Source: Eubacteriales bacterium (GTDB lineage Bacteria; Bacillota; Clostridia; Lachnospirales; Lachnospiraceae). Taken from it: DNA of 32,028 nt. The first letter of the stretch is position 1. Each line of letters starts with the position of its first letter. Below, one piece after another: positions 1-32,028 of the stretch. The notes below the pieces were generated by a model. The model was not told where the DNA came from and made no database searches. It saw only the letters and a list, made by a program, of their open reading frames with translations. The stretch is taken from assembly GCA_030525875.1 (NCBI GenBank), contig JAUNDV010000023.1, positions 1-32,028 on the forward strand. Direction: 5' to 3'. The position numbers and the translations under genes are program-made.

Positions 1-53
1 ATATGGTCACTTTTATACTTGATGAACTTTTACACACAAAATTGGACTTGACC
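1..53 (-). mobile_element. IS-like terminal sequence, left copy (possibly IS256 family)
   Basis: This stretch is an exact reverse-complement match to 31974-32026, and the match stops at position 54. Read outward (minus strand) it begins GGTCAAGTCC, followed by AATTTTGTGTGTAAAAG. From memory this resembles IS256-family terminal inverted repeats, which have an AAGTCC block followed by TGTGTAAAA. The element body would lie outside the window, and no transposase is present inside. The family assignment is inference; the duplication itself is seen directly. Confidence 0.6.
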
Positions 54-65
54 TTCTCTGATGGT

Positions 66-115
66 GTTTTTTGTACTTATTCACACTTATATAAACGTTT
101 TTAGGTACAAAAGCT
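66..115 (-). repeat. GTAC palindromic repeat unit, left copy
   Basis: GTAC cores lie at 73 and 105, 32 bp apart and in opposite orientation (TTTTGTACTT, then TTTAGGTACAAAA). The reverse complement closely matches the third unit of the right-end array (about 31825-31866), including the shared CTAAAAACGTTTA segment. A degenerate extra half-unit, TTATACAAAAGCC, follows at 125-137. This is therefore a dispersed repeat family. It is non-coding: its 99-residue plus-strand reading frame has no family resemblance. Confidence 0.75.
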
Positions 116-29975: not shown

Positions 29976-31436
29976 TTACTTGCAAAGCTTCTTGAATTCA
30001 TCTGCTACAAACTGAACCTTAGGTCCGATGATTACCTGTACGGTATTCTTACTTGGACGCATAACTCCAGCTGCTCCTGAAGCCTTAATCTTGCTTTCAT
30101 TGATTAATGTGTAGTCCTTGATCTCAAGACGAAGTCTTGTAATGCAGTTATCGATGCTTACGATGTTGCCCTTTCCGCCGCATCCTTCAAGGATACCCAT
30201 AGCAACCTCTGTAAAGTTATCGTTAGCTAATGTGATCTTCTGCTCTGATTCCTGGTCATCATCCTCACGTCCAGGAGTCATAAGATTGAACTTAGCAATA
30301 ACAAAACGGAATACTACATAGTAGATGATTCCAACAACGATACCTACTGGAATGATCATCCATGCGTTCTGTGCACAAGGTGTAAATGAGCTTAAGAATA
30401 AGTCAATAGCACCACCTGAGAATGAGAAACCTGCTCTGATTGGAAGTGCAACTGTGATAGCTGCTGTAATACCTGCAAGAAGTGCATGTACCAAGTAAAG
30501 AGCTGGTGCAAGGAACATGAATGAGAACTCGATAGGCTCTGTAACTCCTGTAAAGAATGAACAGAATGCTGCAGAAGCTAAAAGTCCGTAAACAACTTTC
30601 TTCTTACCTGGCTTAGCTGCATGATACATTGCAAGACATCCAGCTGGAAGACCGAACATCATGAATGGGAAGAATCCTGTCATGTACATACCTGTTCCGT
30701 ATGATGACTGAACGCCTGCCCAGAAGTTTGAAAGGTCATTGATACCAGCAACGTCAAACCAGAATACTGAGTTAAGTGCATGGTGAAGACCAACAGGAAT
30801 AAGTAATCTGTTGAAGAATGCGTAAACGCCTGCTCCGATTGATCCCATTCCAATGATAGTCTCTCCGAATGATACAAGTCCTGTATAAACGATAGGCCAT
30901 ACAAAGAATAAAACTACAACTGCTACAAGTGATGCAAGTGCTGTAACAATTGAAACTGCTCTCTTACCTGAGAAGAATGAAAGAGCATCTGGAAGCTTAA
31001 CAGATTTGAATCTGTTGTAGCATGTTGAACCAATAAGTCCGGCAAGGATACCAACGAACTGGTTGTTAATCTTAGCGAATGCTGGGTTTGCTTCTCCACC
31101 AACAAGAACGCTTACTACTCCTGTGCTAAGGAGAGTTGTAATCATTAAGAATGATACAAGTCCTGCAAGTGCTGCTGTTCCATCATTATCATCTGACATA
31201 CCAGCTGCAACACCAATTGCGAAGAGCCATGGCATATTGTCGATAAGAGCACCACCGGCTTTGATTAAGAAGAAACCAATTGTATAAGCAGCTCCCCCCG
31301 CGGTAAATCCTGCAACCTCACCAGCCATTGCTGCAGGTGCTAAAAGGTATCCAATACCCATAAGGATACCAGCAACTGGCAGACACGCAACTGGAAGCAT
31401 AAGTGACTTACCAATTCTCTGTAAAAACTTTAGCAT
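29976..31436 (-). CDS. ptsG: PTS glucose-type EIICB permease
   Basis: A 486-residue phosphotransferase-system permease that imports and phosphorylates glucose or N-acetylglucosamine. It begins MLKFLQRIGKSLMLPVACLP. An EIIC membrane domain (about 1-385) contains the GVTEPIEFSF motif. A C-terminal EIIB domain has Cys431 in SIDNCITRLRLE as the phosphorylated residue. There is no EIIA domain, so EIIA must come from elsewhere. I set the start at 31436, with AAAGGGGG 8 nt upstream; the frame is open to 31601, but that part spans the promoter. It is the sole sugar EII in the window, upstream of ptsHI. Glucose versus N-acetylglucosamine cannot be decided from sequence alone. Confidence 0.94.
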   Translation of the reverse strand: MLKFLQRIGKSLMLPVACLPVAGILMGIGYLLAPAAMAGEVAGFTAGGAAYTIGFFLIKAGGALIDNMPWLFAIGVAAGMSDDNDGTAALAGLVSFLMITTLLSTGVVSVLVGGEANPAFAKINNQFVGILAGLIGSTCYNRFKSVKLPDALSFFSGKRAVSIVTALASLVAVVVLFFVWPIVYTGLVSFGETIIGMGSIGAGVYAFFNRLLIPVGLHHALNSVFWFDVAGINDLSNFWAGVQSSYGTGMYMTGFFPFMMFGLPAGCLAMYHAAKPGKKKVVYGLLASAAFCSFFTGVTEPIEFSFMFLAPALYLVHALLAGITAAITVALPIRAGFSFSGGAIDLFLSSFTPCAQNAWMIIPVGIVVGIIYYVVFRFVIAKFNLMTPGREDDDQESEQKITLANDNFTEVAMGILEGCGGKGNIVSIDNCITRLRLEIKDYTLINESKIKASGAAGVMRPSKNTVQVIIGPKVQFVADEFKKLCK

Positions 31437-31462
31437 TATAAGATCCCCCTTTGAGATTTTTA

Positions 31463-31497
31463 TACATTTCAAATAAGCTAACCGTGAAATGTAGCTT
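31463..31497 (-). promoter_or_regulatory. Two mutually exclusive hairpins in the ptsG leader
   Basis: Stem A is TACATTTCA/TGAAATGTA (31463-31471 with 31485-31493), 9 bp perfect. Stem B is AAGCTA/TAGCTT (31475-31480 with 31492-31497). Both use the same 31492-31493 bases and cannot form together. Such alternative folding resembles antitermination targets upstream of PTS genes, but there is no U-run after stem A. Confidence 0.5.
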
Positions 31498-31498
31498 A

Positions 31499-31527
31499 AT
31501 TGTATAACATTATATACAATAATGCAA
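31499..31527 (-). promoter_or_regulatory. ptsG promoter with TTGTATA...TATACAA operator
   Basis: Minus strand: TTGCAT (31527-31522), 17-nt spacer, TACAAT (31504-31499). The inverted repeat TTGTATA-N6-TATACAA (31500-31519) occupies the spacer and overlaps the -10 box. Its outer core TTGTA-N10-TACAA lies at the same distance from -35 and -10 as in the gntR promoter. A TATAAT at 31514-31509 inside the repeat is a possible alternative -10 without a good -35. Confidence 0.65.
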
Positions 31528-31689
31528 TGAAAAAAACTGCCAAAAATCATTTTTTTGGAAGTTTTTTTTACTTTTTTATTAAAAAAATTATTTTTCCACA
31601 AAAATATCTAAAAATTTTATTTTAAAAAATGGCTTGCTTGATAATTCAGTGAATATGTAAGAATTCAGACACTGTGTAGAATTGCTTTC

Positions 31690-31973
31690 TGGAGATGGGT
31701 TTGTACCTAAATCGTTGTTATCAGAGCTAAAATGTACAAAACTATACTTGCCAGAGATGGGTTTGTACCTGTAAAGGTTTACACAGGGGTGGGAAGGTAC
31801 AAAATCTACCAGCTAAAGGCGGGGTTGTACCTAAAAACGTTTACACAAGTGTAGATAGGTACAAAATCTACATAAAAAATCTTGCGTTTGTACCTAAACG
31901 GACTTAAAAATAAGGAATAGGTACAAAAACCTGCCTAAAGTACAAGCTTTTGTACCTAAAGTGCTGTTAACAG
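31690..31973. repeat. Array of alternating GTAC half-units at 31-bp spacing (BIME-like)
   Basis: Nine GTAC cores start at 31703, 31734, 31765, 31797, 31827, 31859, 31890, 31921 and 31952; the steps are 31, 31, 32, 30, 32, 31, 31 and 31 bp. Orientation alternates strictly: TTTGTACCTAAA, then AGGTACAAAA. One pair plus its gaps repeats every 62-63 bp. The gaps differ in sequence, although GAGATGGGTTTGTACCT is identical in the first two units. An extra core at 31940 breaks the rhythm. There is no reading frame, since 62 is not a multiple of three. Confidence 0.85.
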
Positions 31974-32026
31974 GGTCAAGTCCAATTTTGTGTGTAAAAG
32001 TTCATCAAGTATAAAAGTGACCATAT
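31974..32026 (+). mobile_element. IS-like terminal sequence, right copy (possibly IS256 family)
   Basis: The exact inverted copy of 1-53, beginning GGTCAAGTCCAATTTTGTG and pointing out of the window. It interrupts the last array unit 18 bp after its GTAC core. The flanking bases (31966-31973, GTTAACAG) do not match the left flank, so these look like two different insertions or insertion ends. No transposase is present in the window. Confidence 0.6.
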
Positions 32027-32028
32027 TT

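Follow-up and report, generated by a model that had tools for sequence, protein, structure and literature searches.

The DNA analysed here, a window of 32,028 nucleotides (contig C23, positions 1-32028, of an assembly of 1,826,976 bases in 36 contigs), ends in a BIME-like array of a non-REP family. The family occurs throughout this genome and is intergenic wherever its flanks are known. Its cores are conserved, its spacing is constant, and an insertion sequence (IS) has repeatedly inserted into it with duplication of the target. Our preferred reading, to which we give about an even chance of being correct, is that these are helically phased arrays bound by a putative protein and serving as the preferred landing pad of the IS. 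In such a model, near-identical 9-bp cores alternating every three helical turns would all be placed on one face of the DNA, where a protein would occupy them. This core-bound protein, either a host factor or the transposase itself, would steer insertion, and the IS would enter, with its 8-bp duplications, on the face away from the cores.

The array at the end of the window

The array comprises nine cores, TTTGTACCT (>) or AGGTACAAA (<), in strictly alternating orientation between 31700 and 31957; read in the sense of unit A, it lies on the minus strand. The cores start at 31700>, 31732<, 31762>, 31795<, 31824>, 31857<, 31887>, 31919< and 31949>, and their GTAC centres lie 30-32 bp apart; the earlier note, which described nine alternating GTAC cores about every 31 bp, was right in count, orientation and spacing. 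Seven of the nine are exact 9-mers, while those at 31732 (ATGTACAAA) and 31824 (GTTGTACCT) carry one mismatch each. Against these seven exact 9-mers in 31690-31973, 2000 dinucleotide shuffles of the same stretch gave a mean of 0.017 and never more than one. An extra off-register core at 31938 (AAGTACAAG, two mismatches) spoils the perfect regularity of the array.

The intervals between cores fall into four spacer classes, A-D. By unit alignment, the array consists of a class C unit of the >< type (31700..31740, 41 bp), a class B unit of the <> type (31732..31770), a class A unit of 42 bp with an inner motif like RTGTAAACSTTT (31762..31803), a further B unit (31795..31832) and A unit (31824..31865), a class D unit (31857..31895) and a class C unit (31887..31927), all on the minus strand; both A units are also recognised by the A-unit model. 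The last two units, on the same strand, were classed by eye. One is a D unit (31919..31957), absent from the D alignment because the off-register core at 31938 split it during automatic pairing, and the other is the first part of a C unit (31949..31973) cut by the IS. The remainder of this unit lies at the start of contig C7, for a joined length of 41 bp. Indeed, the array does not stop on its own at 31973: an 8-bp target duplication (GTTAACAG) occupies 31966..31973, with its second copy across the element, on C7, and the left end of the IS begins at 31974 and runs to 32028, where the contig stops inside it. This end matches an IS256-type inverted repeat at 20 of 28 positions. It is the presence in the array of this element, whose ends are of IS256 type, that brings the window to its end.

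The adjoining gene encodes a PTS EIIC/EIIB protein (29976..31601, minus strand, ORF as listed; its true start is probably further in), and on the other side of the array a PTS EIIA gene lies 898 bp away on C7. The opposite end of the window has a similar organisation. Positions 1..53, where the contig starts, hold the left end of a further copy of this IS, followed by an 8-bp target duplication (54..61) whose partner is found at the start of contig C9. A class A unit at 70..111 on the plus strand is the remnant of a second array common to the window and C9. Short tandem repeats are also present near this end, at 220-278 and 742-827 (TTATGTCTTTATGCCA; 25-bp unit). An Rfam scan of 31400-32028 returned eight matches up to E 5, none of which came near its own gathering score, and promoter-like sites numbered 3, compared with 2.6 in shuffles.

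Unit classes, spacing and genomic setting

In this 1.83 Mb genome, the two-core pattern occurs at 30 places, each read on both strands. The family amounts to 12 arrays and one solitary A unit (C7:791-832), that is, 13 loci. The arrays are present as 16 fragments with 103 listed cores (four of these with two mismatches), four pairs of fragments being joined via IS target duplications. The covariance model of class A gives 63 matches at E <= 1 in this genome, a figure that includes matches on either strand, matches to other classes and two weak stray ones. Outside the arrays, no excess of cores is obvious, as one-mismatch core matches number 849 genome-wide versus 756 for a reversed control pattern, and the excess of 93 compares with 103 array cores. 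A lone one-mismatch core 58 bp outside the array C25e was left out of that array. One array, on contig C35, contains a run of N (L048 4725-4824).

The 31-bp spacing peak proposed in the earlier note extends to the whole family: over all arrays, 78 of 79 gaps between GTAC centres measure 30-32 bp (mean 31.2 bp, sd 0.7, about three helical turns) and one measures 38 bp. This count takes in only oppositely oriented neighbours 24-40 bp apart, and leaves out same-orientation neighbours in C7b (10768/10831, 10925/10947), C32a (14881/14900/14919) and the window (31919/31938). Alternation is imperfect in these three arrays, which weighs against the phased-array reading. Extra same-orientation cores 19-22 bp apart are seen at array ends (L038 10947; L045 4901 and 4920).

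Alignments comprise 26 class A units, all of 42 bp, 19 class B units of 38-39 bp, 18 class C units of 40-42 bp and 14 class D units of 38-39 bp. Two of the 79 units, both <>, stand outside the alignments: one in C25e that measures 46 bp, and one that is degenerate and opens C32a. Cores have a mean identity of 0.94-0.97, and mean spacer identity is 0.755 in A, 0.499 in B, 0.581 in C and 0.730 in D. The arrays read as AB and CD modules, with a module order, judged by eye, that is consistently A then B and C then D. Identities within and between arrays are 0.733 and 0.756 for A, 0.581 and 0.494 for B, 0.596 and 0.580 for C, and 0.783 and 0.728 for D, the within-array values being drawn from only 3 to 20 pairs per class. 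Because two units of one class resemble each other almost as closely across arrays as inside a single array, the arrays probably spread as multi-unit blocks, the AB and CD modules, and not by single units.

This organisation bears on the possibility that the arrays are selfish or neutral repeats whose blocks are copied, whose spacing is simply inherited and in which the IS merely tolerates intergenic DNA. Such an account, which we consider a serious though clearly less probable contender, is favoured by the block-wise structure with its consistent module order by eye, by candidate functions that are still putative, and by the family being known from one genome only. The last point also counts against the phased-array reading, since spacing could come from block duplication and not from selection. 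The selfish account sits poorly with a spacing that is strict although spacer identity in class B is only 0.50, and with insertions that far exceed the share expected from intergenic space alone (assumed to be 12% of the genome). Spacing that stays constant while spacers diverge is more in keeping with a phased binding site than with a hairpin.

The units could nevertheless act as hairpins, either in RNA, as 3'-end stabilisers or terminators, or as cruciform DNA, in the manner of classical REPs. Ten folds of nine single units as RNA gave z scores of -1.6 to -4.4. The single units and the window array fold better than most or all shuffles, which speaks for hairpins and against the phased-array reading, but they do so because neighbouring cores are inverted repeats, which must fold. 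One terminator-like match (31958-31918, minus strand) was found, compared with a mean of 0.2 in shuffles. The position of the units at gene 3' ends also agrees with hairpins, as does the fact that four of the six array insertions lie at the centre of a unit, the expected place of a loop. The consensus folds of B and D, however, stop at the core and do not extend into the spacers, with the exception of three weak inner pairs on the minus strand of class B that show double changes but also broken cells; in A and C, pairing was only counted on a supplied structure. Changes on both sides of a core pair occur in none of the four classes, which points to a sequence site more than to a stem, although the test is weak since the cores hardly vary. 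Furthermore, each core can pair with either neighbour, and loops of 20-24 nt make poor cruciforms. We regard the hairpin reading as unlikely.

As far as their flanks are known, the arrays sit between predicted genes (ORFs of at least 90 aa). Five lie between convergent genes, five between co-directional genes, and two have one side unknown, so that none of the ten arrays with both sides known has a divergent setting. Gene orientations across IS joins were combined by hand for this count, and two overlapping ORFs of 98-100 aa inside arrays were taken as spurious. The neighbours include EF-Tu, EF-Ts, IlvD, a semialdehyde dehydrogenase and BrxA. With the IS removed, the BrxA-side array stands between the EF-Ts gene and the BrxA gene (BREX defence, PF08849, E 2.6e-57), which on contig C31 (L043 6940-7539) starts 229 bp from the array. 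It seems very improbable that the arrays are operators through which one transcription factor controls neighbouring genes: the cores are conserved and repeated, and some arrays have regulator genes close by (Fur/PerR-like, iron-dependent repressor, AraC-like, LacI-like and CRP-like), but a location at 3' ends and between convergent genes, with 0/10 in divergent settings, and neighbours otherwise as unrelated as EF-Tu, EF-Ts, IlvD and PTS genes argue against it.

Insertion of an element with IS256-type ends

Ten of the 16 array fragments break off at the end of a contig, where they abut one or other of two constant sequences. The corresponding IS-end pattern has 11 occurrences, all at contig ends, of which 4 are left ends and 7 are right ends. 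Compared with a 28-base inverted repeat that we take to be that of IS256, the right end matches at 21 of 28 positions, and the left and right ends agree with each other at 18 of 28. Elements of the IS256 family generate target duplications of 8 to 9 bp. An 8-bp duplication matches each of the four left ends to a right end; two of these duplications could be 9 bp through an ambiguous end base. Joining the flanks of the pairs restores units of 42, 41, 39 and 42 bp, one of which has a degenerate core. The reference repeat is printed as an inverted repeat in a Tn4001/IS256 paper (PMC4045577, excerpt). No match to PF00872 (Transposase_mut) at E <= 1e-10 is found in this genome, the IS body lying outside the assembly. 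The putative assignment of the element to this family rests on its ends and on the duplication length. The IS left end, with up to 3 mismatches, was found in none of 115 relatives. Four IS256-type loci of two congeners (G018 and G004) are without the IS-end pattern, and the inverted repeats of three of them revealed nothing comparable.

Three right ends are unpaired. Those at C5, in a degenerate B-like spacer (by eye), and at C35e adjoin arrays; the one at the start of C25 does not, the 1548 bases of L054 being free of exact cores. This copy, the sole non-array site among seven, lies just upstream of a small ORF. The arrays total 3117 bp (hand-set spans) of 1,826,976, or 0.17% of the genome, so that finding 6 of 7 insertion sites in arrays has a binomial P of 1.7e-16, or of 5.7e-11 if insertion is confined to the assumed 12% of the genome. 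With six of the seven sites in arrays and four paired 8-bp duplications, the suggestion of the earlier note that such repeats are IS targets is borne out.

Measured from the centre of the left core, the insertion centres at the four complete sites are at 16, 16, 17 and 4 bp. For C5 and C35e, distances were taken from the centre of the right core and amount to 26 and 15 bp, which entered the phase test as 5 and 15.5 bp; these two sites have one flank only, and their distances assume the 31-bp period. Four of the six array insertions fall midway along a unit. With the helical repeat set to 10.4-10.5 bp, the resultant is 0.89-0.90 (P 0.003 and 0.002), with the insertion centres clustered half a helical turn from the cores. 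The test, which is post hoc with n=6 and includes one degenerate core, makes helical phasing of insertion a lead, not proof, and clustering at the 31-bp unit period itself is not significant (P 0.24), two points that weaken the phased-array reading. The six insertion sites lead to a testable prediction that links helical phase to the target choice of an IS256-type transposase.

Sequence similarity suggests that the transposase may itself recognise A units. The class A consensus is identical to the IS left end in 20 of 25 aligned columns, which include a single gap and take in the inner motif GTGTAAA and the core. Of 60,000 random 55-mers drawn from the retrieved part of the genome, 62 scored as high, as did 38 of 40,000 AT-rich ones; none of 300 shuffles did. 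One possible explanation is that the array descends from IS256-type ends and that the transposase would bind A units as extra left ends, drawing the element in. The rarity of the alignment among random 55-mers supports this origin, as does a scan of 134 kb with the left-end stretch in which the only place outside IS ends to score at least 14 was one A unit. Several observations stand against it. Twelve comparisons were made, which brings the corrected chance of the match to about 0.01; the right end does not match, its score of 8 being attained by 115 of 300 shuffles; against the left end, single A units score 8-14, only 1 of 26 reaching 14; at three other places in the genome, the score with the A consensus reaches 14; and insertions fall in B and C units too. 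Descent from IS ends is a doubtful proposition. More doubtful still is a self-made landing pad, in which the end of the element would have been amplified into phased intergenic arrays, with transposase on one face and new copies entering on the opposite one. If true, this arrangement would keep the element in harmless places.

Comparison with known repeats and occurrence elsewhere

BIME arrays, which are REP arrays, are known from enterobacteria, Xanthomonas and Stenotrophomonas. An excerpt of PMC2817692 describes BIMEs as alternating REPs that bind gyrase and IHF, and ties them to REP palindromes and RAYTs. The present arrays resemble BIMEs, and BIME-2 in particular, in their alternating, regularly spaced units, recurrent inter-unit modules and extragenic location (PMC2817692, excerpt), as well as in being targeted by IS (PMC1525189, excerpt). 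With alternating intergenic units at multiple loci, the BIME-like architecture recognised in the earlier note is supported. The likeness to REPs drawn in that note does not extend to the units: these are not imperfect palindromes, the half-units pair only with the neighbouring core and show no compensatory changes (a weak test), and the core consensus, TTTGTACCT / AGGTACAAA, carries on reading no GTAG or CGTC tag, although most REPs carry one or the other (PMC3733652, excerpt). Nor was the dedicated TnpA-REP transposase that the note had envisaged recovered. A PF01797 profile search of this genome (assembly 97.75% complete) found no intact RAYT or Y1 transposase, only two short fragments covering 31 and 24 of 121 profile positions, each with an internal stop. 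These broken Y1-type fragments lie at C6:22550-22642 and C8:27414-27485. Further differences from BIMEs are the phasing of the cores at three helical turns and the four spacer classes. BIME architecture and IS targeting are thus found here with unrelated cores and without an intact RAYT, which suggests that alternation at whole helical turns, rather than the REP hairpin, may be what matters in this design.

Several IS families, IS256 among them, have REP arrays as targets, the IS256-family example being ISRm5 of Sinorhizobium meliloti 1021 (5 of 7, association type 2; PMC1525189, excerpt). The present case is similar in that an IS256-type element is concentrated in intergenic repeats. It differs in species and repeat, the target being a non-REP array, and in the four matched 8-bp duplications. 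Outer cores point inward at 21 of the 22 array ends not cut by the IS (hand count), the sole outward exception being a degenerate core at the start of C32a, so that the smallest element is an inverted pair, as in REPINs. REPINs occur as many dispersed doublets, unlike these 13 loci, which are mostly long arrays and for which no intact RAYT was found. BOX elements differ from the present arrays in module sequences and regular alternation. They are comparable as an interspersed repeat family of a non-proteobacterium, Streptococcus pneumoniae (PMC3049150, excerpt). A CRISPR array is ruled out, since the cores alternate and the spacers recur as classes A-D. Among the titles and abstract openings listed in literature searches, no description of such a repeat family was found.

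The exact two-core pattern was found in 1 of 61 genomes, 24 of them congeners, and that one is this genome itself. The A model gave only weak single matches in 3 of the 24 congeners (E 0.009, 0.31 and 0.76) and weak matches in 10 of 249 other sampled genomes of the bacterial family (E 0.0095 or worse), one of the 249 being a congener. These were taken as chance, as they score at most 25 bits versus 46-70 bits for the full-length A units of this genome. The earlier note named half-units found only here as grounds for refutation. This does not hold within the genome, with its 13 loci, but it holds among the 24 congeners, where no convincing copy was found; the 249 family genomes yielded none either. 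On the best reading, the repeat family would be restricted to the species. Beside the EF-Tu gene, 14 congeners showed no array by eye; the flank looked non-orthologous, so that no empty site could be demonstrated. The PTS gene next to the window array has no DNA match in the 24 congeners. Plasmids and phages searched with window positions 31690-32028 gave no match, and the A motif and the IS left end, both as exact patterns, are absent from viral contigs. Two viral-contig matches look like chance, with no further cores in the 280 bases around each.

In 84,980 species genomes, a collection that possibly does not include this genome, the three-core pattern matched only two unrelated tRNA-tail repeats, both in Paludibacteraceae (L031 and L032). 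These matches were set aside as copies of a tRNA 3' tail, recognised as tRNA by eye, that end in AGGTAC and are spaced 34-36 bp apart. They form a separate small array of similar look next to a tRNA gene, in which tail copies (GCCTCAGGTAC) and inverted copies alternate (L031 1589-1754 and L032 4547-4668).
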